From IMG/VR virus record IMGVR_UViG_3300023192_002121, positions 1-30,323 of that record: 30,323 nucleotides of DNA. One strand, written 5' to 3'. Positions 1-21,591 of the stretch are shown here, piece by piece. The notes beneath the pieces were generated by a model. The model was not told the origin of the DNA. It made no database searches and saw only the letters and a list, made by a program, of their open reading frames with translations. The position numbers and the translations under genes were made by a program. Origin of the DNA: a virus. Position 1 is the first letter of the stretch, and each line of letters opens with the position of its first letter.

Positions 1-516
1 AACAGAACCTGTTTTATCTTCATACATTTTCAATGCTAGCCACTCTTGAAAAGTAGCAATAATAGGTGCAGTAGGTATTATTTTTGATATGTAATCTTGA
101 AATACTTGCTGATTAATCCATTCATCCCAATCAAGGTAAACCCATTTACATTTAATATCGTATTTATATTCGAATTGACGAACATATTCCTCATCAATAG
201 AATCCTCAAGACAATGCATATGCCAAAGTTCAAACGAATCTCTAGGAGCTACCTCAATAAAAGCTTTAGCTACATATTCCGAATCTAGTCCACCACTGTA
301 TTGTATTTTAATAGGTTTTTCATATCTATCACAAATTTGTTCTACTGCTAAACAAGTTTCTTCCCATAAAGAATTAATTTTTCTTTGTGGAGGATCGTAT
401 TCCCAGTACATTGGTTCTGTAATACTTTTTCTAATTTGACTTTTATTAGCATATTCCCAACGAATTCCACCGCGTAATTGTTGATTTTTAAAATTTACAA
501 TATCATGTAATCTCAT
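1..516 (-). CDS. PP-loop ATPase, asparagine-synthase-like, partial (runs off left edge)
   Basis: Reading leftwards from ATG at 516 the frame stays open to base 1, giving 172 residues with the C-terminus missing. Residues 71-80 read IQYSGGLDSE, the SGGxDS pyrophosphate-binding loop of N-type ATP pyrophosphatases (asparagine synthase, QueC, NAD synthetase families). These enzymes activate a carboxylate or carbonyl by adenylation. No glutaminase domain with an N-terminal Cys precedes the loop, so an amide or amine donor other than glutamine, or a separate partner, would be needed. The start overlaps the SET gene stop by 14 bases, so it is the last visible gene of the leftward operon. It is a distant relative of the three PP-loop genes at 7796-11444. 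The substrate cannot be told from the sequence. Confidence 0.8.
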   Translation of the reverse strand, partial: MRLHDIVNFKNQQLRGGIRWEYANKSQIRKSITEPMYWEYDPPQRKINSLWEETCLAVEQICDRYEKPIKIQYSGGLDSEYVAKAFIEVAPRDSFELWHMHCLEDSIDEEYVRQFEYKYDIKCKWVYLDWDEWINQQVFQDYISKIIPTAPIIATFQEWLALKMYEDKTGSV

Positions 517-7594: not shown

Positions 7595-7792
7595 ATGTTA
7601 TATGCATCAAGGGAAGAGTTAAAGGTAGAAGTCAGGGAATGTCATTCTATGATCAGAGAAGTTGCCGCCGATTTAGGTGGTGACATTAAAACCTTAAATG
7701 ATCGCTTTAAAGATTTACAAGATATTTTTAATAATCTTGAAGATACATTAAAACAACTGGATACGCAAATAAAATTTTTAAGTAATGAATAG
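7595..7792 (+). CDS. Small coiled-coil protein
   Basis: A 65-residue protein whose second half (LNDRFKDLQDIFNNLEDTLKQL and beyond) shows a clear heptad pattern of Leu, Ile and Phe. AAGGGA lies at a proper distance before the ATG. It has no cysteines, membrane segment or known catalytic motif. As first gene of the PP-loop operon, three bases ahead of the next start, it may act as a small adaptor or oligomerisation partner; that is inference from position only. Confidence 0.65.
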   Translation: MLYASREELKVEVRECHSMIREVAADLGGDIKTLNDRFKDLQDIFNNLEDTLKQLDTQIKFLSNE

Positions 7793-7795
7793 TTA

Positions 7796-8866
7796 ATGTA
7801 TATTTTAAAAAATAAAGTTACAGGAGATATCTATAAAAATAGGCAAGACATATTAAACAGTTCAACATTTAACATTAAAGATCTTGAAGCAATTTGGCCA
7901 GAAGGTTGGGATTCTATTAACTGGACAGAAGAACCTAGTGAACCTTTAGAAGAACTATACAAACAACGAGCGTTACAACTTAGGGGATCATATGATTATC
8001 TAATACTATATTACAGTGGAGGAAGTGACTCTTCTACTGTTTTAAATATATTTAAAAAGTATAATATTCCTTTAGATGAAGTCATAACAAATAGATTTGC
8101 AGATCACGATTTACTTAAATTACCTTATGTAGTTCCTGATTATGGAAATAAAATAACGAGTATTAATATAACCCATGATTTTTTACAGGACTTTCATTAT
8201 AATCAAAAGTGGTTAACTGATGGATTTGGATATAGTGGACTAATGCATACATTATCTAGAAACGAAATTTATTTTTTTGAAAAACATAATTTAATAAAAA
8301 CTCTAACTAGAAAAGGTAATGTTGCTCATATTTATGGAATAGATAAACCTTTAATAAAAATAGTTAATAATAAATATTATTGTACTTTTAGTAGTAATAC
8401 TATAAATTTTAATGAGCATAATCAACATGAGTATAAAGAACATTTTTTTACAAGTGAAAATTTCCCAAAACTACATGCTAAACAGTGTCATATTATAATG
8501 AATTGGTGTAAAATTAAATATCCAAAAAGTACTAGAGCTGTTTCAGAATCAGCTTATCCAGATTCTAGAGAGATAATGAATAGATTATTACGTGATCCTT
8601 TTGATAATAGAAATGACCCAGGAGGAAGTAGCGCAGGAGGGTTTTTAAATAGTATAACTAATATTAAAACAGAAGTTGGAAAGTTGTTATCAATTTATAA
8701 AAAAGATAAATTTTATGATACTTATGTAAATGGAGTAGTAAAATCTTATTTTAATACAGACTCTGCAATAAAATTAATGAAATTTACAAAACAAAAAGAT
8801 ATACAATTAATAGATAAGAATTTAGAAAAACGAATTTATTTAGGTGACACAGTAAATGAACAATAG
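7796..8866 (+). CDS. PP-loop ATPase, asparagine-synthase-like, copy A
   Basis: A 356-residue protein with LILYYSGGSDSS at residues 69-80, the SGGxDS ATP-pyrophosphatase loop. An 80-residue N-terminal segment unique to this family (MYILKNKVTGDIY... and WPEGWDSINWTEEPSEPLEELYKQRA) precedes it in place of a glutaminase domain. Further conserved blocks shared with copy B are GFGYSGLMHTLSRNE, HAKQCHIIMNW and GGSSAGGFLNS. The protein should adenylate a carboxyl or carbonyl group. It is a close duplicate of the next gene: 49 of the first 60 residues match. Whether the nitrogen comes from free ammonia or an amine cannot be seen. Confidence 0.8.
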   Translation: MYILKNKVTGDIYKNRQDILNSSTFNIKDLEAIWPEGWDSINWTEEPSEPLEELYKQRALQLRGSYDYLILYYSGGSDSSTVLNIFKKYNIPLDEVITNRFADHDLLKLPYVVPDYGNKITSINITHDFLQDFHYNQKWLTDGFGYSGLMHTLSRNEIYFFEKHNLIKTLTRKGNVAHIYGIDKPLIKIVNNKYYCTFSSNTINFNEHNQHEYKEHFFTSENFPKLHAKQCHIIMNWCKIKYPKSTRAVSESAYPDSREIMNRLLRDPFDNRNDPGGSSAGGFLNSITNIKTEVGKLLSIYKKDKFYDTYVNGVVKSYFNTDSAIKLMKFTKQKDIQLIDKNLEKRIYLGDTVNEQ

Positions 8867-8901
8867 AACTTGGTTAGTAAGTAAAAATCTTAAATAATTA
8901 A

Positions 8902-10011
8902 ATGTATATTTTAAAAAATACCATTACAGGGGAAATCTACAAAAATAGACAAACCATTTTAAATAGTTCAACATTTAATATTAAAGATCTTGAAGCAACT
9001 TGGCCCGAAGGCTGGGATACTATTGATTGGACACAAGAACCTAGTGAATCTTTAGAAGAGCTACATAGACAACGGGCTTTACAACTTAGAGAATCATATG
9101 ATTATTTAATATTATACTATAGTGGAGGAAGTGATTCTTCTACTGTTTTAAATATTTTTAAGAAATATAATATTCCTTTAGATGAAGTAGTTGTGGGACG
9201 ATTCATAGATCATGACTTACTTAAATTACCTTATGTAAAACCAAATTATGGAAATAAAATAACTAATATCAATATAACTCGTGATTTTTTATACGATTTT
9301 CATTCTCAGCAAAAATGGTTAAAAGATGGATTTGGATATAGTGGACTAATGCACACATTATCTAGAAACGAAGTTTATTTTTTTGAAAAACATAATTTAA
9401 TAAAAACCACAGTTAGAAAAGGTAATATTGCCCATGTTTATGGGGTAGACAAACCTTTAATAAAAATGGTTGATAATAAATATTATTGTACTTTAAGTAG
9501 TAATACTGTAAATTTTAATATTCATAATCAATATGAGTATAAAGAAAATTTTTTTACAAGTGAAAATTTTCCAAAACTACACGCTAAACAGTGTCATATT
9601 ATAATGAATTGGTGGAAAATTGAATATCCAAAAAGTACTAGAGCTATTTCAGAATCTTCTTATGTAGATTCTAGACAAGTAATGAATAATTTATTACGTT
9701 ATTCATATGACTCTAGAAACGATGCTGGTGATAATAGTGCAGGAGGGTTTTTAAATAGCGTAACTAATCTTTCGTCTGAAAATGGAAAATTAATAAATTT
9801 ATATAAAAGAGATAAGCTCTATGATACTTATGTAAATGGATTAATAAAAGAATATTTTACTACAGATAATGCAAAATTAATTATGAATAGAGGTATTGCA
9901 GGAAAAAACACAGGAAAAGAGAATAAAATAAGTAAAAGTAACGATCTAAAAATAATAATCAAAGAATTAGAAAAACGTTTTTATTTAGGAGACATGGTAA
10001 ATGACCAATAA
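8902..10011 (+). CDS. PP-loop ATPase, asparagine-synthase-like, copy B
   Basis: A 369-residue tandem paralogue of the preceding gene, with the same SGGSDSS loop at 74-80 and near-identical DNA over long stretches, indicating fairly recent duplication. Changes are spread over the whole length and the reading frame is intact, so it is under selection. The C-terminus carries an insertion of about a dozen residues (from AGKNTGKENK) before the shared ending ELEKRFYLGDMVNDQ. Its stop overlaps the start of the thioredoxin-fold-like gene by 11 bases. It may act on a related substrate or form a hetero-oligomer with copy A. Confidence 0.8.
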   Translation: MYILKNTITGEIYKNRQTILNSSTFNIKDLEATWPEGWDTIDWTQEPSESLEELHRQRALQLRESYDYLILYYSGGSDSSTVLNIFKKYNIPLDEVVVGRFIDHDLLKLPYVKPNYGNKITNINITRDFLYDFHSQQKWLKDGFGYSGLMHTLSRNEVYFFEKHNLIKTTVRKGNIAHVYGVDKPLIKMVDNKYYCTLSSNTVNFNIHNQYEYKENFFTSENFPKLHAKQCHIIMNWWKIEYPKSTRAISESSYVDSRQVMNNLLRYSYDSRNDAGDNSAGGFLNSVTNLSSENGKLINLYKRDKLYDTYVNGLIKEYFTTDNAKLIMNRGIAGKNTGKENKISKSNDLKIIIKELEKRFYLGDMVNDQ

Positions 10012-10267
10012 AATATATGGAATTTGGAATAAAGAAGGAATAAGTAATCAGCAATGGGTTGAAGAAATTATAAATAAAATTAAGATTGATTTTAATAATG
10101 TAACAGCGGAAGCTGTTGATTCAGACCATGCTATGAATAACAGATATGGTATAGAAAGGTATCCCGCATTTTTAGCTATTAAAAATGATGCGTTGTTAGA
10201 TAAAAAGATAGGTAAATTTATGAACAACGATATTGACACATGGTTAAGGAATTATGGATGGAGTTGA
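10001..10267 (+). CDS. Thioredoxin-fold-like protein without CxxC
   Basis: An 88-residue protein. The segment GIERYPAFLAIKND at about 50-63 resembles the cis-Pro loop and following strand of thioredoxins, and FMNNDIDTWLRN resembles the final helix. The N-terminal IYGIWNKEG could be the first strand, but the helix that normally starts with CxxC has no cysteine; the protein has none at all. If the fold call is right it is a binding or chaperone-like module with no redox role. It overlaps copy B by 11 bases at its start and copy C by 14 bases at its end, so it is tightly coupled to the two PP-loop genes. Confidence 0.55.
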   Translation: MTNKIYGIWNKEGISNQQWVEEIINKIKIDFNNVTAEAVDSDHAMNNRYGIERYPAFLAIKNDALLDKKIGKFMNNDIDTWLRNYGWS

Positions 10268-11444
10268 TCCAGCACTACTAACTTATTATATTAAAAATAA
10301 AAAAACAGAAGAAAAAATATATAGTATAAATGAGCTTATAAATACTTCTCACACTTCTTGGGATAATTATGAATTTTACGATCCTAATAAAAATTTTTGG
10401 TCTAAACAAGAATGGACAATAGAACCAGAAGAATCGCTTCGTGAATTGTATAAACAACGAGCTATACAAATCAGAGAATCTTACGATTATTTAATTTTAT
10501 ACTACAGTGGGGGAAGTGATTCTTCTACAATATTAAGAACGTTTTTAGACAATAACATTTTTTTAGATGAAATTGTTACATATACTCATGATTTATATGA
10601 AAATAATACAGATTTATTAAGTAAACAAGACACCTCTGTTATAAAATTAAAAAAAGAATCTAAATTATCAAGTAAAACAAAAATTACAATACACAATATT
10701 ACAAGAGCTGATATATTTGATTATATAAAAAAGGAAAAATGGACTAATGTAAGAGAACATAGATTTAATGGAAATCTTACTCATTTTAGATGTTATAGAA
10801 TAGATCAATTAGATTCTTTTAAAAGACCTAATAGTATAGCACATGTACATGGACATGGAAAACCAGAATTTAAAATATCTGATGATTATTGGCATCACCA
10901 ATATCATTCTGTAAGTTTTTCTTCTAATGCACATGTTGGTTTTTGCCCTTTTTTTATCTCTATAGATTTTCCAAAAATTCAAATAAAACAACATTGGGAA
11001 GTAATTAAACTATTTGAAAGTACAAATCTATTAAAAGAATTAATTTTCTCTTCTATGAAGTATTTTCGTAATTATAAAATTATAGGATTGAGAGAATCGA
11101 CACAAAGTAAATTTTCTGATCCATTAGAAAAGTGTATTAGATATGGATACGGTACTCATTCAAATAATGCTCACACAAATCCGGTTAAATTTTTTACTTA
11201 TAATTATAAAGAACTTACAGAGTGCAACGAAGAAACTACAGAAGTTTTAAGAACTATCTTATTAAACGAAGATTTTGAATTATATAAATTATATAAAAAT
11301 TCTTATATTTCTACTATGGCAAGATGGCAAATTAATAATAAAAAAAATTTACCTATAGAAGAAAAACATCATGGATCATTATATGTTATTCCTAAACCTC
11401 CTCCAACGTCTTTTAAAATAAAGAAACTAAATATAATAATATGA
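10254..11444 (+). CDS. PP-loop ATPase, asparagine-synthase-like, copy C (diverged)
   Basis: A 396-residue third paralogue. The N-terminal module is recognisable (YYIKNKKTEEKIYSINELIN, then EWTIEPEESLRELYKQRAIQIRESYDYL) and the loop SGGSDSS lies at 85-91. Beyond that the similarity falls away except for short blocks (RNEIYFFE replaced by LTHFRCYRI, and HGHGKPEFKIS against IYGIDKPLIKI). It therefore separated from A and B much earlier. The start chosen overlaps the previous gene by 14 bases. Its stop codon overlaps the aminotransferase start, so both are in the same operon. Confidence 0.78.
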   Translation: MDGVDPALLTYYIKNKKTEEKIYSINELINTSHTSWDNYEFYDPNKNFWSKQEWTIEPEESLRELYKQRAIQIRESYDYLILYYSGGSDSSTILRTFLDNNIFLDEIVTYTHDLYENNTDLLSKQDTSVIKLKKESKLSSKTKITIHNITRADIFDYIKKEKWTNVREHRFNGNLTHFRCYRIDQLDSFKRPNSIAHVHGHGKPEFKISDDYWHHQYHSVSFSSNAHVGFCPFFISIDFPKIQIKQHWEVIKLFESTNLLKELIFSSMKYFRNYKIIGLRESTQSKFSDPLEKCIRYGYGTHSNNAHTNPVKFFTYNYKELTECNEETTEVLRTILLNEDFELYKLYKNSYISTMARWQINNKKNLPIEEKHHGSLYVIPKPPPTSFKIKKLNIII

Positions 11445-12541
11445 AAAAAATAGCGTTTATTCCACATAAAAAAAGAATAGAAAGACATAAAGTTGATTAT
11501 CTAAGAGCAATTTCTGATGCAATGGATGATCCCTATCAGTCAGAAGACGGAAGAGATGTTAGAGGTGTTCAACTTAAATTAATAAATAAGTGTGCAGAAC
11601 TTTCTGGAGTACCTTATTGGACATTTACAAATTGTTGTACAGATGCATTACAAATATCTATACACGCCCTTACTAAACCAAATGATGTTATTTTAATGTC
11701 TTCATATGGTTGGCGAGCTTTTGCTAATGCTGCATCATTTATGAGTAGACAAATAAGATTTACTGATTGTGATGCTACAGGTAATATGGATATAGATTTA
11801 ACTGTAGAAGGATTAAAAAATAATAAATGGGGTAAAATAGGAGCCATTATAGTAGTACAAAATTTTGGAACAGTGACTGATGTTAGAAAACTTCAACCAA
11901 TCTGTAAAGAATTAGGTATTCCAATAATAGAAGACGCTGCTCCTGCTTTTCAAATAGGGGAACCTTACGATTATAAACCCGGACACGCATCAGATATAGT
12001 TTGTTTTAGTTTTGATTTTACTAAATATCCCGGAACACTTGGTTCAGGTGGTGGGTTAGCTGTTAATGATCCTGAACTTCATAATTTAATATACGAAATT
12101 ACAGCACACGGTAGGGCTAAAAATAAAGAAATTGTCAGAGTTGGAACTAAATCATATTTAGATATAACTTCGTGTGCTGTACTATTAAAAGAGATAGAAC
12201 TTTTTGAGCAATACGGATATAGAGAGAAGCGAAGACAAGTTGCTTCTTTCTATATGGATAATCTACCCTATACATGTGTACCAGGAGATAACTATATTTG
12301 GGAAAGATATACAATGAGCGTACCGCGTAACGATGTAGATTCAGTTATAGAGAAACTTAATGCAGTTGGTTGTTTAGCTAAAACTTTCTTTAAAGAACCA
12401 CTACATTTATTTCCGTGGCTAAATATATATAATGATAGTTGTCCTATAGCTGAAAATTTTGTGAAAACAACCGTAATGCTTCCTAGCCATCATTATTTAG
12501 AAATAGAAGAATTACAAAAAGTTGCAGATGTTCTGTCGTGA
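11441..12541 (+). CDS. DegT/DnrJ/EryC1/StrS-family aminotransferase
   Basis: A 366-residue PLP-dependent fold type I enzyme. IIEDAAPAF at 162-170 matches the EDAAQA motif that contacts PLP, and CFSFDFTKYPGTLGSGGG at 188-205 holds the Schiff-base Lys195 in the FSFxxxK...GxGG block. The family transfers an amino group, usually from glutamate, to a keto sugar bound to a nucleotide. It lies between a PP-loop amide or amine-forming candidate and a radical SAM protein, consistent with building an amino sugar. ATG 11441 overlaps the copy C stop (ATGA). Confidence 0.88.
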   Translation: MKKIAFIPHKKRIERHKVDYLRAISDAMDDPYQSEDGRDVRGVQLKLINKCAELSGVPYWTFTNCCTDALQISIHALTKPNDVILMSSYGWRAFANAASFMSRQIRFTDCDATGNMDIDLTVEGLKNNKWGKIGAIIVVQNFGTVTDVRKLQPICKELGIPIIEDAAPAFQIGEPYDYKPGHASDIVCFSFDFTKYPGTLGSGGGLAVNDPELHNLIYEITAHGRAKNKEIVRVGTKSYLDITSCAVLLKEIELFEQYGYREKRRQVASFYMDNLPYTCVPGDNYIWERYTMSVPRNDVDSVIEKLNAVGCLAKTFFKEPLHLFPWLNIYNDSCPIAENFVKTTVMLPSHHYLEIEELQKVADVLS

Positions 12542-12564
12542 ATATATTAAGATGTTAGAGTATC

Positions 12565-13410
12565 ATGCTGTATAATTGTTATATGTTAGACGTTCATTTA
12601 GCTAATGCTTGTAATTTACATTGTGATGGTTGTAATCATTGGTCTAATTATAATTTTAAAGAGATATTTTCTAACGAGGTGTTATATAAGTGGGCAAAAC
12701 CATGGGCAAAGAGATTAAGTCCAGAAAGAATTAATTTATTAGGGGGCGAACCTTTATTAAATAAAGAATGTGAACAAATTATAAGTACATATAGAGAATT
12801 ATTTCCAGACTCAGTAATTAAACTTTTTACTAACGGATTATTACTATCTAAACAAGAATGGTTGTACGAATGTTTAAAAAGAAATAATATTGTATTAGTA
12901 ATTACTTTTCATTCTAAAAATAAAGTATATAAAGCAAAATTTAAAAAAGAGTTACAATTTTTACAAACATGGGGTAAAGCAAAACTAATAAAAGAGACTT
13001 GGTTTAGAAAAGTTTATAATATCAAAAAGGTAGAAGTAGAAATTAGATACATGAGCGGACATTGGTATAAGACTTATAAAGGAAACGGTATAAACGCAGT
13101 ACCTTATACAGATAATAATCCAAGTAAAAGTTGGGAAAATTGTATATCAAAAGACAGTATGCAATTATATAATGGTAATTTGTTTAAATGTGGGCCTATT
13201 GCGTATTTAAATGATTTTTTAGATAAATATGGTTTAAAAAATAAATCAGAATGGAAATCCTATAGTAAGTATAAAGGGCTTACTCCTAATTGTACAGATA
13301 ATGAACTAAATAAATTTTTAAAAAGAAAAGATGAGTTTATTTGTAATATGTGCCCAGCTAACCCTGAAAAAATGAATGATAAAGAGATATTTAAAATAAA
13401 AGAAAAGTAA
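12565..13410 (+). CDS. Radical SAM protein with SPASM-like C-terminal cysteines
   Basis: A 281-residue protein with the CxxxCxxC cluster at Cys16, Cys20 and Cys23 (ACNLHCDGCNHW) and the GGEP SAM-binding motif at 60-63, both near the N-terminus. Further cysteines at 193, 209, 243, 260 and 263 (KCGP, CNMCP) form a SPASM or twitch-like set that could hold a second cluster. Such enzymes perform radical chemistry on peptides or sugars. It follows the aminotransferase by 23 bases. The substrate is unknown; the lack of a RiPP precursor nearby and the presence of sugar enzymes favour a carbohydrate or protein target, but weakly. Confidence 0.85.
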   Translation: MLYNCYMLDVHLANACNLHCDGCNHWSNYNFKEIFSNEVLYKWAKPWAKRLSPERINLLGGEPLLNKECEQIISTYRELFPDSVIKLFTNGLLLSKQEWLYECLKRNNIVLVITFHSKNKVYKAKFKKELQFLQTWGKAKLIKETWFRKVYNIKKVEVEIRYMSGHWYKTYKGNGINAVPYTDNNPSKSWENCISKDSMQLYNGNLFKCGPIAYLNDFLDKYGLKNKSEWKSYSKYKGLTPNCTDNELNKFLKRKDEFICNMCPANPEKMNDKEIFKIKEK

Positions 13411-13432: not shown

Positions 13433-13717
13433 ATGAAAATAGAAGTATATAATAATAATGTAATTAAAGCTTATAAAAAGCTTAATAAAAAATTACATGA
13501 AGACGGTATGTATAAAAAACTAAAAGAAAAGCAGTTTTATAAGCCTCCTTCTTTAAAGAAGAGAGAGAAGCACGAACTTGCTGTATTAAGGTTAAAAAAG
13601 GCAGAGTTAAAAAGACAACAATTATTTGAAAAACAAGAAAAGCAATTAATAAATAAAAACAAACGTATAAACAAACCATCATCCAGACCACAACATCCAA
13701 TACAAAATTATTCTTGA
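13433..13717 (+). CDS. rpsU: Phage-encoded ribosomal protein bS21
   Basis: A 94-residue, very basic protein. IEVYNNNVIKAYKKLNKKL near the start matches the bS21 opening (V-x-V-x-x-N-x-x-V-x-x-A-L-R-x-F-K-R), and FYKPPSLKKREKHE at about 35-48 matches its signature YEKPSxKRRRK. The remainder is a Lys/Arg helix, with a 25-residue tail longer than typical bS21. bS21 sits near the anti-Shine-Dalgarno end of 16S rRNA and affects initiation. Phage copies are known in marine phages, including pelagiphages. A GAAAGG ribosome binding site precedes ATG 13433. It could replace host bS21 and bias initiation toward phage messages; that role is inferred. Confidence 0.85.
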   Translation: MKIEVYNNNVIKAYKKLNKKLHEDGMYKKLKEKQFYKPPSLKKREKHELAVLRLKKAELKRQQLFEKQEKQLINKNKRINKPSSRPQHPIQNYS

Positions 13718-14017: not shown

Positions 14018-14228
14018 AATAGTGTTAAAACCCGGCATTCTTGATAATGCAGGTAAAGCAATTACTAGAGCACTTCAAGCATTGGGATTTAATAATGTAC
14101 AAAATGTACGAATAGGAAAAATATTATTTTTAACTTGTAAATCTAGTGATATTGAAAAAATAATAAAGACACAAGTTAACGAAGTTATGGAAACATACAC
14201 AGTAGAGTGTCTTGACGACGCAGACTGA
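13995..14228 (+). CDS. purS: PurS, FGAM synthetase small subunit
   Basis: A 77-residue protein with YLIKIVLKPGILDNAGKAI at the N-terminus and ALQALGF following, the PurS signature (V-x-LKPGILDPQGKAI...L..LGF). PurS bridges PurL and PurQ in phosphoribosylformylglycinamidine synthase, step four of purine synthesis. The start is taken as TTG 13995, because no ATG exists before the conserved strand. It overlaps the upstream gene by 23 bases. No purL or purQ is in this window, so the subunit would either join host proteins or partners elsewhere in the phage genome. The tmRNA acceptor piece begins at or inside its last codons. Confidence 0.82.
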   Translation: MKKQYLIKIVLKPGILDNAGKAITRALQALGFNNVQNVRIGKILFLTCKSSDIEKIIKTQVNEVMETYTVECLDDAD

Positions 14229-14270
14229 AAACTGAACTGGACGGGGGTGCAATACCCCCCGCCTCCACCA

Positions 14271-14365
14271 TAAGCACTCGATGGATACCTGGAACTTGGG
14301 AACATGTCCAGCATCGAGTCCGGACTTCGATGGGTTAACCTCTCTACTTATCGAGTGTTTATGAT
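14271..14365 (+). other. Intervening segment of the permuted tmRNA precursor
   Basis: This spacer between the acceptor CCA and the coding-piece 5' end should be cut out during maturation. TAAGCACTCGAT at 14271-14282 pairs with ATCGAGTGTTTA at 14350-14361 (12 bp, one G-U), extending the acceptor stem and presenting both pieces to RNase P and 3' processing enzymes. A second hairpin lies at 14312-14332 (CATCGA ... TCGATG). Confidence 0.75.
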
Positions 14366-14452
14366 GGGGGCGAAATAGGATCGACAGACAGATAATAGGA
14401 AAGCCGAGAGACAGGTGCGCGAGCGACCTTAACCGCAAGAAATTTAATAAAT

Positions 14453-15534: not shown

Positions 15535-15756
15535 ATGAGATATATATGTGATGTTCTTTATGAAATGCGAGCATGCACTAAGACTTTAAACTTTTCTTAT
15601 TTGATAGGAATGATTGAAGAACTACAAACTCTTGCAAATCGAATGGAGGAACGCTTGTACGAAATGAAGGATTTTGAGTACCTTCATGAAGAAATTAGAG
15701 CTTTGAAAAAGAAGAAGAAGAAGTTAGAAAAAGAAGTAGCGGCGCTGGAAGAATGA
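15535..15756 (+). CDS. Small coiled-coil protein
   Basis: A 73-residue protein whose C-terminal half, from MEERLYEMKDFEYLHEEI onward, is a highly charged coiled coil ending in a run of lysines and VAALEE. The stop overlaps the epimerase ATG by four bases (ATGA), so it is translated together with that gene. No catalytic motif. ATG 15535 has no clear Shine-Dalgarno, although AAGGATAG ends the previous gene. Confidence 0.55.
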   Translation: MRYICDVLYEMRACTKTLNFSYLIGMIEELQTLANRMEERLYEMKDFEYLHEEIRALKKKKKKLEKEVAALEE

Positions 15757-16772
15757 ATAAAAAAAGAATATATATAACTGGTACAGCAGGATTATTAGGA
15801 AGTTGGATTGCTAGAAAATTTATAAATAAAAAGTGGGAAGTTAGAGGTTGTGATAATTTAGTAGGCGGATTAAAAGATAATTTACCCCATCCTGATTACG
15901 CTAAAATTGATAAAATTGATATTTTAGATTTAGATGCACTAAAAGAATCAATGAAAGGTTCGAATATTGTTGTTCATTGTGCCGCTCTTCCATATGAAGG
16001 ACTTTCTGTATTTAGTCCAAAACTTATTGTAGAAAATATTGTGGGCGGTACTGTTAGCGTAGCCAGCGCTGCTATTCATAACAATGTTGAATTGTTTGTA
16101 AATTGTAGTTCTATGGCTAGATATGGTGCACAAGAACCTCCTTTTACAGAAGACATGCCAAGAAGTCCAGAAGATCCTTACGGATTAGCTAAGGCGCAAG
16201 CAGAAGAACATTTAGAACTATTATATAAACTTCATGGACTAAAATATTTTACTATAGTTCCACATAATATTATTGGAATTGGGCAAAGATATATGGACCC
16301 GTTTAGAAATGTTGTTGCTATTATGATTAATAGACTAAAATTAAATAAAAAAATTATTATTTACGGAGATGGGGAGCAAAAAAGAAGTTTTAGTAACATT
16401 GATGATTGTGTAGTTGCGATTGAAAGACTTATTGATAGTGAAAAAGATTTATGTGGGCAAGTTTATAATATTGGACCTGATGATAATGAAATTTCAATTA
16501 AAGACTTAGCATATAAAGTTGGACATCATTGTGGTGTGTATCCTCATTTTGAACATTTTCCAGATAGACCAGGAGAAGTCAAATACGCGTGGTGTTCTAG
16601 TAAAAAAATTAAAGAAGAATTTAATTATAACACAACAAAAACATTAGATCAAACTATTCAAGAAATGTGTAATTGGATTAATAAAAGAGGACCACAAGAA
16701 TTTGAATACACACTAAATTTAGAATTTGAAAAGGAAAATACTCCAGAAACATGGAAGAAGAAACTAATATAG
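15753..16772 (+). CDS. NAD-dependent epimerase/dehydratase (extended SDR)
   Basis: A 339-residue nucleotide-sugar enzyme. GTAGLLG at 10-16 is the Rossmann GxxGxxG, NCSSM at 117-121 holds the catalytic Ser, and Tyr143 and Lys147 (YGLAK) complete the SDR triad. Later blocks VPHNIIGIGQRYMDP and GDGEQKRSFSNIDD match the NDP-sugar-binding segments of GalE, WbpP and related enzymes. It interconverts or modifies a UDP- or GDP-sugar. Close neighbours are glycosyltransferases, and the aminotransferase at 11441 is in the same direction, so it likely prepares a precursor for glycan assembly. Confidence 0.88.
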   Translation: MNKKRIYITGTAGLLGSWIARKFINKKWEVRGCDNLVGGLKDNLPHPDYAKIDKIDILDLDALKESMKGSNIVVHCAALPYEGLSVFSPKLIVENIVGGTVSVASAAIHNNVELFVNCSSMARYGAQEPPFTEDMPRSPEDPYGLAKAQAEEHLELLYKLHGLKYFTIVPHNIIGIGQRYMDPFRNVVAIMINRLKLNKKIIIYGDGEQKRSFSNIDDCVVAIERLIDSEKDLCGQVYNIGPDDNEISIKDLAYKVGHHCGVYPHFEHFPDRPGEVKYAWCSSKKIKEEFNYNTTKTLDQTIQEMCNWINKRGPQEFEYTLNLEFEKENTPETWKKKLI

Positions 16773-19598: not shown

Positions 19599-20417
19599 AT
19601 GTTAAAAAAATCAGTTATTTCGTTGATAAGTTATGATGCTTATATGTTACCCTCTAGTATTAAAACATATTATAAATATGTTGATGAAATTATATTAGGA
19701 CTAGATGAAGATCGAATTTCATGGAGTGGAAATAAATTTACTTTTGATGAAGAAAAACTATGGGCAGAATTACAAAAAATTGATTCTGATGATAAAATTA
19801 GTATAATTGAATCAAATTTTCATAAAAGTAATATAGCAATACAAAACGATAATTATGAAAGAAACTTTCTAAAATCTCAATGTTCTCACGATTGGATATT
19901 TAGTTTTGATGCAGATGAGCAATTAGTAAATACTAAAGATTTTTTTATAAGATTTTTACCTTTAGCTACTAGATATTATGATAAATATGATCTTACATTT
20001 AGATGGTTTACACCATATAAGAAAATAGGTATTGATTATTTAATAATAGCTAATGAAGATAATAGACTTCATAAAGAAACTCCACAAGGTTTTGCAACGC
20101 ATAAAAATAATGTTTTTACTTATGCTAGATGGACAAATAATAAAAAACATTTATTATCACCATTATGTGTATTGCATTGGAGTTTATGTAGAGAAAAAGA
20201 TGATTTACACCAAAAAATAAATAATATCGGTCACAGCAATATAGCAAAAGAAGATCCTTTTTACGAAACATGGCAAAAAGTAACATTAGATAATTTTGAT
20301 CAATTAAAAGATTTTAAAACATCAGGTTTTGGTAATAATCAATGGCCTAAGTTAATAAAAATACCTGAATCAATGTTAATAGAAGTATGTGAACACGAAT
20401 CGAGAACGGATTATTAA
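19599..20417 (+). CDS. Family 2-like glycosyltransferase
   Basis: A 272-residue protein opening KSVISLISYDAYMLPSSI, with DWIFSFDADEQLV at about 97-109. DADE is the metal-binding motif common in GT2 proteins that add sugars with a late-positioned DxD. It lacks membrane segments. It starts two bases after the methyltransferase stop and ends one base before the next glycosyltransferase start. The later GFATHKNNVFTYARW could belong to the acceptor site. Specificity is unknown. Confidence 0.75.
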   Translation: MLKKSVISLISYDAYMLPSSIKTYYKYVDEIILGLDEDRISWSGNKFTFDEEKLWAELQKIDSDDKISIIESNFHKSNIAIQNDNYERNFLKSQCSHDWIFSFDADEQLVNTKDFFIRFLPLATRYYDKYDLTFRWFTPYKKIGIDYLIIANEDNRLHKETPQGFATHKNNVFTYARWTNNKKHLLSPLCVLHWSLCREKDDLHQKINNIGHSNIAKEDPFYETWQKVTLDNFDQLKDFKTSGFGNNQWPKLIKIPESMLIEVCEHESRTDY

Positions 20418-20418
20418 T

Positions 20419-21591
20419 ATGAATATAGAAATATTTGGAAAATTTTACGACAACCATTCGTTGGCAATTATAAATAGAAATATTTTAATTCAATTATCGC
20501 AAAATAAAAATTTTAAAGTAGCTATAACGCCTACAGATGGGTACAATCCTGATTATAAAGTTGATAAAGAAATAATCAGATTATTAAAAAAACACCAAGC
20601 TGTACAATTTGATGCTCCTGATATACAATTACGACATTCGTATCCACCTATGTGGAGATGGCCTGCGTCAGAAAAAACAAAAATTATTTATATACAACCA
20701 TGGGAATGGTCACGATTTCCAATGGAATGGCAATATAAATTTGAAACATTTACTGATGCTTTAATTGTTCCTAGTCAATGGGAGGCTAATGTTATTTTAA
20801 ATGGAGGTATTAATCCAAATAAAATATTTGTAGTTCCTAACGGATATGATCCTATGATATTTAACAATCAAGAAGAAGAAAAATCAGAATATCTTGATAA
20901 AAATAAGAAATATGTTTTTGTTTTCGTCGGAAACGGTCAGTTTAGAAAAGGTGCAGATTTAGTAATTAATGCGTGGAAAGATTCATTTAAGTTAGCTGAT
21001 AATTGTCAGTTATTTATTAAAGATAGCCCACAAATATATGGGCAATCCACAATTTTTCAACAAATAATGGCCTTGCAATATAATACTGGATGTGGTACTA
21101 TAATTTATAATGATGACTGTTTATCAGACCGAGAAATGGCAAAAATTTATAAACAAGCTCTTGCTATAGTTGCTCCATATAGAGGTGAAGGATTCGGAAT
21201 GCATATCCAAGAAGCAGCAGCTTGTGGCGCTATTCCAATCATATCTAGAGGTGGTCCAACTGATGAATTTATATCTGATGAAATTTCAATAAAAATTGCG
21301 ACAGGTCAAAAAATAGAAAATCTTATGGCGGATCACATATTTGCAGGTAAGGCAGGCGATGCTCTTACTCTAATGAATACACATGGATATGTGTTAGATC
21401 CCAATTTTGATGAATTAAAAAAAGCAATAAAAAACTTATATCATCATCACGAAAAACAAAATATAATTGATAGTGTTAAAAATTCAAAATTAGAAAATAC
21501 ATGGGAGAATGTAGGTAACCGTTATATAAGTATTTTTGATACGGTATTAAGCAAAAACGGTAAACCTTCAAGAATGAATTATGTCAGATAA
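20419..21591 (+). CDS. Family 1/4-type glycosyltransferase (GT-B)
   Basis: A 390-residue protein. ATG 20419 is chosen because the protein then opens MNIEIFGKFYDNHSLAI. A GT-B fold is shown by VPSQWEANVI, IFVVPNGYDP, FVGNGQFRKGADLVINAW and especially PYRGEGFGMHIQEAAACGAIPI, the EX7E-type donor-binding block of GT4. It should be a retaining enzyme using a nucleotide sugar. It follows the GT2 gene directly and overlaps the Fe-S carrier gene by 11 bases. Confidence 0.85.
   Translation: MNIEIFGKFYDNHSLAIINRNILIQLSQNKNFKVAITPTDGYNPDYKVDKEIIRLLKKHQAVQFDAPDIQLRHSYPPMWRWPASEKTKIIYIQPWEWSRFPMEWQYKFETFTDALIVPSQWEANVILNGGINPNKIFVVPNGYDPMIFNNQEEEKSEYLDKNKKYVFVFVGNGQFRKGADLVINAWKDSFKLADNCQLFIKDSPQIYGQSTIFQQIMALQYNTGCGTIIYNDDCLSDREMAKIYKQALAIVAPYRGEGFGMHIQEAAACGAIPIISRGGPTDEFISDEISIKIATGQKIENLMADHIFAGKAGDALTLMNTHGYVLDPNFDELKKAIKNLYHHHEKQNIIDSVKNSKLENTWENVGNRYISIFDTVLSKNGKPSRMNYVR

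Follow-up and report, generated by a model that had tools for sequence, protein, structure and literature searches.

What three genes for PP-loop ATPases, all encoding proteins without a glutaminase domain, do in a phage genome is the question raised by IMG/VR virus record IMGVR_UViG_3300023192_002121. It was analyzed over positions 1 to 30,323, the whole stretch of 30,323 nucleotides being called the window here. The three genes, A, B and C, belong to a protein family that we named family I, and they lie among the following features.

1-516, minus strand: PP-loop protein of family II (SGGLDSE; alignment A4), truncated at the window end
7595-7792, plus strand: 65-aa protein, left border of the variable block; orthologue at L032:4072-4260, there directly overlapping the thioredoxin-like gene
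7796-8866, plus strand: PP-loop ATPase A (family I), 356 aa; open reading frame with SGGSDSS, member of alignment A2, HMM E 1.3e-68
8902-10011, plus strand: PP-loop ATPase B (family I), 369 aa, duplicate of A (77% identity); HMM E 3.7e-67
10001-10267, plus strand: 88-aa thioredoxin-fold-like protein, no cysteine, resident backbone gene; weak Pfam Thioredoxin match, E 0.005, below cut-off
10254-11444, plus strand: PP-loop ATPase C (family I), 396 aa, old divergent lineage; HMM E 2.9e-68, model pTM 0.79
11441-12541, plus strand: DegT/DnrJ/EryC1 aminotransferase, backbone gene; Pfam PF01041, E 1.6e-41; 39 phage loci
12565-13410, plus strand: radical SAM protein, backbone gene, after DegT in many relatives; Pfam PF04055, E 6.5e-9
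13433-13717, plus strand: ribosomal protein S21 homologue, right border of the variable block; Pfam PF01165, E 1.7e-9
15753-16772, plus strand: NAD-dependent epimerase/dehydratase, same sugar island; Pfam PF01370, E 4.3e-42
20389-21591, plus strand: glycosyltransferase group 1, same sugar island; Pfam PF00534, E 2.4e-16

Genes A, B and C and their predicted fold

A, B and C are uninterrupted open reading frames on the same strand, each with SGGSDSS, as the preliminary description of this DNA had claimed, and its count of 49 identities among the first 60 residues of A and B proved exact. The claimed absence of a glutaminase domain was confirmed as well: the PP-loop is preceded by about 60 N-terminal residues, which form a short hairpin, a helix and a strand in the model. 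The distant fourth PP-loop gene reported at 1-516 does encode such a protein, which carries SGGLDSE and belongs to a second family. The tandem arrangement proposed for all three genes holds for the A-B pair, while C is set apart by one gene, encoding the 88-aa protein, which is not a PP-loop protein. At its other end, C overlaps the DegT gene by 4 bp.

A and B are 77% identical over 356 codons, and C is 34-37% identical to either (BLASTP E 5e-30 for A-C and 4e-32 for B-C), a similarity that is not due to chance given these E values. The three genes represent two lineages, A and B being a recent duplicate pair and C an old, separate one. The A-B dN/dS ratio is 0.31 overall and 0.13 across the first 100 codons, indicating that the maintained motif reflects purifying selection. 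The A/B duplication may predate or postdate the split from the related locus L138 (support 89/67). In the tree, C joins A/B by a long-branch join.

Searches of A, B and C in Pfam, NCBIfam and PHROG gave nothing above cut-off; matches to SCF (Pfam, A), DUF4303 (Pfam, 1-516) and LFAT1 (PDB) were below cut-off or marginal and were taken as chance. We modeled C by AlphaFold2 on a 73-sequence alignment (pLDDT 70.9, pTM 0.79, core >90), for which an earlier model on an 8-sequence alignment (pLDDT 49.9) was set aside. The motif loop of the model sits between strand E79-84 and helix H88-99. Among PDB entries, LarE, NAD synthetase, MnmA and GMP synthase match the model best (probability ~1.0, best E 1.3e-3). 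The model supports a predicted membership of A, B and C in the PP-loop (N-type) ATP pyrophosphatase superfamily. More specifically, family I shares with LarE, NAD synthetase and GMP synthase (PDB 6dg3, 3p52, 5tw7) the PP-loop core around SGG.DS, whereas its N-terminal ~60 residues and C-terminal half are its own; Foldseek matches in PDB cover the core only (TMq ≤0.30, none at E <1e-3). It also differs from these enzymes in having neither a conserved cysteine nor a glutaminase.

SGG.DS is found in 73/73 family-I members, and D105 and F233 (C numbering) are invariant across the family. A, B and C diverge at the family-conserved positions E123, D148, D219 and K309 (C numbering), with the ATP site conserved. 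This pattern of residues fits the earlier suggestion that the copies may act on different acceptors.

Extent of family I

Family I is an undescribed and almost exclusively phage-borne family, with 74 non-redundant members in 55 aquatic-phage loci, and no entry of Pfam, NCBIfam, PHROG or PDB covers it. Four members used as tblastn queries against 50,697 GenBank phage records gave no match, which makes it likely that no family-I enzyme has been studied. Viral contigs scanned with the single protein B yielded no match, and a first genome scan was equally empty. Uncultured Caudovirales phage proteins, among them A0A6J5LIE9 and A0A6J5P984, match the fold at full length (TMq 0.56-0.64, E to 2e-16) and are family-I members; their entries carry no function. 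No named family covers these divergent phage enzymes, at least 74 in number, whose ATP-activating site is intact.

Chromosomal copies occur in 4 of 129 Bacteriovoracales genomes, and once they were found the idea of a strictly viral family was dropped. A match in Methylococcaceae (L089) is probably viral sequence inside a MAG, as judged from its short contig (3.2 kb), its tandem of family-I and DctP-like genes and its nesting among phage genes. The preliminary description knew of no characterized pathway with three such enzymes side by side; within family I, tandem genes are common, as six pairs are directly adjacent and L050 has a triple among them, so that neighboring copies are not peculiar to the window.

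Gene content of the variable block

About 30 related marine phages share the order of a 62-66 aa protein, a thioredoxin-like protein, DegT, then radical SAM and/or epimerase, as a rule with S21 next (DegT-radical SAM-S21 in L122-L125 and L132), and normally with no PP-loop gene. The number of PP-loop genes at this place is 0 in L032, 1 in L138 (a single A/B-type gene, no C), 2 in L112 and 3 in the window. The slot of C is elsewhere taken by two family-I genes (L112), by two genes of a different PP-loop family (L139) or by radical-SAM genes. The PP-loop genes of both L112 and L139 overlap the DegT gene, and an epimerase then follows; next to these sugar enzymes, one PP-loop family has thus independently taken the place of another. 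From the contents of L138, L032, L112 and L139, we conclude that A+B form one item of exchangeable cargo and C another. That two different PP-loop families swap in one slot beside a sugar aminotransferase suggests an exchange of tailoring enzymes among phages, in the manner of O-antigen genes among bacteria.

These observations speak against a pathway unit of three enzymes, aminotransferase and radical SAM protein, as had been implied, since the backbone neighbors are kept in ~30 phages without PP-loop genes and the copy number varies from 0 to 3. C, DegT and radical SAM as one operon-defined pathway was likewise rejected, family-I genes being present in only 2/39 DegT loci, so that the sugar chemistry proceeds without family I. 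The 88-aa protein had been named for complex prediction with A, B and C; its thioredoxin-like orthologues occur without PP-loop neighbors in the same ~30 phages, so it is a backbone gene and not a dedicated subunit.

The sugar genes of the window comprise DegT, an epimerase, two weak GT2, a GT1 and a methyltransferase, and the region around A, B and C probably rebuilds host surface sugars. Family-I copies of Bacteriovoracales (L091, L092/L100) also have DegT, epimerase and GT2-like genes within ~10 kb. A study of pelagimyophages describes hypervariable regions with glycosyltransferases and radical SAM cassettes, presumed to modify the O-chain of the host (PMC7029224). HTVC008M-like pelagimyophages have S21, radical SAM cassettes and a glycosyltransferase-rich hypervariable region in common with the present phage group, and curli-like genes in common with L032, as seen there by eye. 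The available text of PMC7029224 contains neither "aminotransferase" nor "asparagine", and neither PP-loop cargo nor a TctC link appears in it.

Proposed amide ligation and its alternatives

Our tentative reading, to which we give a probability of roughly 0.38, is that A, B and C perform ammonia-dependent carboxylate activation (amide ligation) for a host-surface sugar, as swappable cargo. The genes ride in the hypervariable sugar-modification island of a marine phage, which would be of the SAR11 type and pelagimyophage-like. Each enzyme, predicted to be a working PP-loop (N-type) ATP pyrophosphatase, would adenylate a carboxylate, and attack by free ammonia would give an amide; a uronamide-type sugar is one candidate, some other decorated acid a second. 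The resident DegT aminotransferase, epimerase and glycosyltransferases may then link this product to their amino-sugar chemistry, and the glycan so decorated could alter the host surface, for example excluding competing phages. Gain, duplication and swapping of the genes would shift which acceptor is decorated. If surface decoration is indeed the purpose, it would account for some of what the hypervariable region contains in phages that are among the most abundant of the sea.

WbpS-type enzymes have a glutaminase domain, and its absence from family I counts against the analogy with them. WbpG/WbuX/PseA N-acetyl-sugar amidotransferases are PP-loop proteins without a glutaminase of their own, encoded in sugar clusters, and family I resembles them in both respects; however, only 2/73 members match their model (TIGR03573), with a best E of 0.045, below cut-off. 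As for a partner of the HisH type, class I GATase passed the cut-off in 1/20 phage records and nowhere in the window, and class II GATase was found in 0/20. The lack of a phage-encoded glutaminase in trans points to ammonia or host-supplied nitrogen. The conversion of uronic acids into uronamides by WbpS-type AsnB-like enzymes has been described (PMC7468200). WbpS/WbqG-type enzymes are similar in proposed reaction type and in their aminotransferase, epimerase and glycosyltransferase neighbors, but they have the AsnB architecture, and family I matches no asparagine synthase model of Pfam.

In freshwater relatives, the commonest neighbor is the carboxylate-binding protein TctC and not a sugar enzyme, which counts against the sugar reading. 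Family I may instead act on an organic acid that is imported and bound by the adjoining TctC-type receptor, activating or amidating it for metabolite capture or amide synthesis rather than for a glycan, which we consider somewhat unlikely. Same-strand TctC genes immediately adjoin 31 of the 74 non-redundant family-I genes, counted as neighbors of the PP-loop genes, against 4.9 expected (maximum 12 in 1000 permutations), often with a 4-bp stop-start overlap. Their identity is given by Pfam PF03401 in 43/46 members and by PDB profile matches with E to 1e-68; a search with one TctC protein matched only itself. Between two family-I genes of L044 stands a complete TctC-TctB-TctA set, and DctP-like proteins occur in 14/55 family-I loci. 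However, neither TctC nor DctP adjoins A, B or C, for whose lineage the receptor would have to be missing or host-supplied. Moreover, the receptor has a signal-peptide-like N-terminus and is probably periplasmic, the ligase probably cytosolic; contact between the two is therefore unlikely. The tight TctC link is nevertheless the first handle on the family-I substrate, and relatives that adjoin carboxylate-uptake proteins open its chemistry to testing.

A broader reading seems to us rather improbable. Aquatic phages would carry a modular carboxylate system, in which a TTT receptor (once the whole TctCBA) captures an organic acid and divergent PP-loop ligases with Rieske, radical SAM or desaturase enzymes convert it to an amide or some decorated product. 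The marine, glycan-linked branch of this system would be A, B and C, each paralogue with its own acceptor.

LarE-type transfer of sulfur into a carboxylate or cofactor is very unlikely, even though LarE is the best PDB match and the commonest weak NCBIfam match (12/73). LarE and its kin require a cysteine or cluster cysteines. No conserved cysteine was found in family I, where the best cysteine column reaches 30/73, and those of A, B and C (3, 2 and 4) are scattered, which argues against persulfide sulfur transfer.

Modification of tRNA or nucleobases, by relatives of TilS, QueC, TtcA or MnmA acting on tRNA or DNA, is suggested by superfamily resemblance and weak NCBIfam matches, and pelagimyophages are reported to carry a TilS (PMC7029224). 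We hold it to be highly doubtful. TilS and QueC, named beforehand as the alternative account, explain none of the three genes: the NCBIfam models match 4/73 members each (best E 0.014 for TilS and 0.018 for QueC; 0.014 for QueC in Pfam), all far below cut-off. The missing conserved cysteine counts against this chemistry too, and several divergent paralogues per phage are unexpected for a single tRNA step. TGT was found in 0/20 records, which may be fragments, and QueC-type DNA modification was rejected on this count. Pseudoenzymes, or structural or defense/counter-defense proteins with the PP-loop fold and no ligase chemistry, would fit the altered family-conserved positions outside the ATP site of A, B and C, but are improbable given the invariant ATP motif and the A-B dN/dS of 0.13 over the first 100 codons, and a defense system was dismissed as PADLOC gave no match to the PP-loop proteins.

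Family I has only marginal matches in PHROG, where 4/73 members match phrog_424 at a best E of 4.7e-5. PHROG 424 (PAPS reductase-like) and PHROG 1550 (QueC-like) are likewise phage PP-loop proteins, and PHROG 1550 touches family III.

A conserved ATP site in genes A, B and C

In this 30,323-base viral fragment from IMG/VR, the three PP-loop ATPase genes are intact open reading frames on one strand, and a gene for an 88-aa thioredoxin-fold-like protein (Trx-like) is placed between B and C, overlapping both neighbours.

7796-8866, same strand as B and C: A, 356 aa
8902-10011, same strand as A and C: B, 369 aa
10254-11444, same strand as A and B: C, 396 aa

As claimed in the preliminary description, SGGSDSS is found in all three proteins, and A and B share 49 of their first 60 residues. 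A and B are 77% identical overall and form a recent pair in the tree; C, 34-37% identical to either (E 5e-30 and 4e-32), lies on a long branch. The dN/dS of the A-B pair is 0.31 overall and 0.13 across the first 100 codons, indicating that the ATP part is under selection. Structure prediction, suggested earlier as a check and run here for C by AlphaFold2 (73 sequences; overall pLDDT 70.9, pTM 0.79), gave a confident PP-loop core, where pLDDT reaches roughly 90 or higher over approximately residues 50-110, and a poorly modelled C-terminal third. Foldseek matched this model, over the core only, to the PP-loop enzymes LarE, NAD synthetase, MnmA and GMP synthase. The claimed lack of a glutaminase domain is also upheld, the first ~60 residues being predicted to form a small hairpin-helix-strand module instead.

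Searches from these proteins gathered 74 non-redundant members, including A, B and C, spread over 55 loci; almost all of these are viral contigs from aquatic sources, some of them large, at up to 345 kb. We named this group family I. SGG.DS is invariant in 73/73 aligned members, and so are D105 and F233 (C numbering). The ATP-side positions are nearly all kept in A, B and C, which differ at several family-conserved positions away from the ATP side; these changes would be compatible with, not proof of, a changed acceptor. Pfam, NCBIfam, PHROG and PDB sequences hold no entry covering family I, and four members had no match among 50,697 GenBank phages. The earlier judgement that no known family explains A, B and C was correct. 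Six unnamed uncultured Caudovirales proteins have the same predicted fold. Family I is a new family within a known superfamily, broad and unstudied.

Two more phage PP-loop families occur within family-I loci, family II (SGG.DSE, about 290 aa), to which the fourth, more distant gene noticed at 1-516 belongs, and family III (about 390 aa), which touches PHROG 1550. The 20-kb locus L021 has seven PP-loop genes, two of family I and five of family II, within 10 kb of one phage (7849-17798), together with two genes for TctC carboxylate receptors and a Rieske protein. In another locus, a family-I relative (L032:9899-11167) has SGESDS as its PP-loop and is possibly altered or inactive; a gene resembling an O-carbamoyltransferase lies close after it.

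Resident block and exchangeable cargo

A scan using the DegT aminotransferase gene returned 39 phage loci, about 30 of which share the order [62-66 aa]-[Trx-like]-[DegT]-[radical SAM and/or epimerase]; a ribosomal protein S21 homologue usually closes the series. The interval between Trx-like and DegT is empty in most of these.

Genes at the two variable positions (L-numbers, related loci)
Trx-like/DegT slot
window: C
L112: a pair of family-I genes
L139: two PP-loop genes matching the family-III model
L113: radical SAM gene
L117-L119, L133, L140: ~560-aa gene with a CxxxCxxC motif, upstream of DegT
L124, L126: ~190-aa gene
Upstream of Trx-like
window: A and B
L138: single A/B-type gene (71% to A, 67% to B); C absent from this locus
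L032: no PP-loop gene; 62-aa and Trx-like genes overlap directly

Because slot contents vary among L138, L032, L112, L139 and the window, A plus B and C are two separate cargo pieces, while the aminotransferase and radical SAM genes, belonging to a block common to about 30 loci, are part of the resident block. The idea of three side-by-side enzymes as one pathway is therefore not sustained, A, B and C being exchangeable members of a broad phage family. In the window, L112 and L139, DegT begins within the final 1-4 bases of the PP-loop gene before it, so that the two are probably coupled in translation. One phage's tandem copies often fall in different old tree groups (L011, L035, L050, L039), which points to paralogues kept for distinct roles.

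The core of the window's radical SAM protein (12565-13410) matches prokaryotic viperin profiles (PADLOC pVip, E 1.6e-13, residues 9-118), probably by generic radical SAM similarity.

Carboxylate receptors and chromosomal relatives

In other loci, the commonest immediate neighbour of family-I genes is a TctC/Bug carboxylate receptor, adjoining 31 of the 74 genes against 4.9 expected when labels were shuffled within loci (maximum 12 in 1000); the junction is often a 4-bp overlap, and Pfam assigns TctC in 43/46 neighbour proteins. Phage contig L044 carries a complete TctC-TctB-TctA transporter flanked by two family-I genes (9975-12611; TctA, PF01970, E 5e-125), as well as a family-II gene, a Rieske protein adjoining the transporter genes and a radical SAM protein. 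Such periplasmic TctC/Bug proteins directly adjoin family-I genes in L014, L021, L035, L044 and about 30 other phage loci. DctP-like proteins occur in 14 loci, the inspected copies having no obvious signal peptide.

Chromosomal family-I genes were found in 4/129 Bacteriovoracales genomes; at two of the loci inspected, genes for DegT, an epimerase and GT2-like proteins are also present, no more than about 10 kb away. The copies at L090, L091, L100 and L101 have nearby genes for membrane proteins that Pfam marks as spermine-synthase-like and for small proteins resembling nicotianamine synthases by eye.

Proposed reaction and host

By analogy with the superfamily, A, B and C would adenylate a carboxylate, or a similar group, for attack by a nucleophile. 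Our guess for the latter is ammonia, since most records lack a glutaminase (class II in 0/20, class I in 1/20, of records that may be fragments) and the 73-member alignment has no conserved cysteine. The genes lie in a sugar-island context, and this context, with the precedent of AsnB-like WbpS-type enzymes that turn uronic acids into uronamides (PMC7468200), suggests that the acceptor may be a sugar acid. The purpose may be a change of the host surface, as pelagimyophage hypervariable regions are read in PMC7029224.

14178-14588, + strand: gene for a permuted tmRNA with tag ANDNEAFEDYRLAA (106 bits against Rfam tmRNA_permuted)

An open reading frame at 14130-14438, overlapped by this gene, was rejected as spurious. 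The permuted tmRNA is of alphaproteobacterial type, in agreement with an alphaproteobacterial host, and ARAGORN also found such a gene in L112 and L122.
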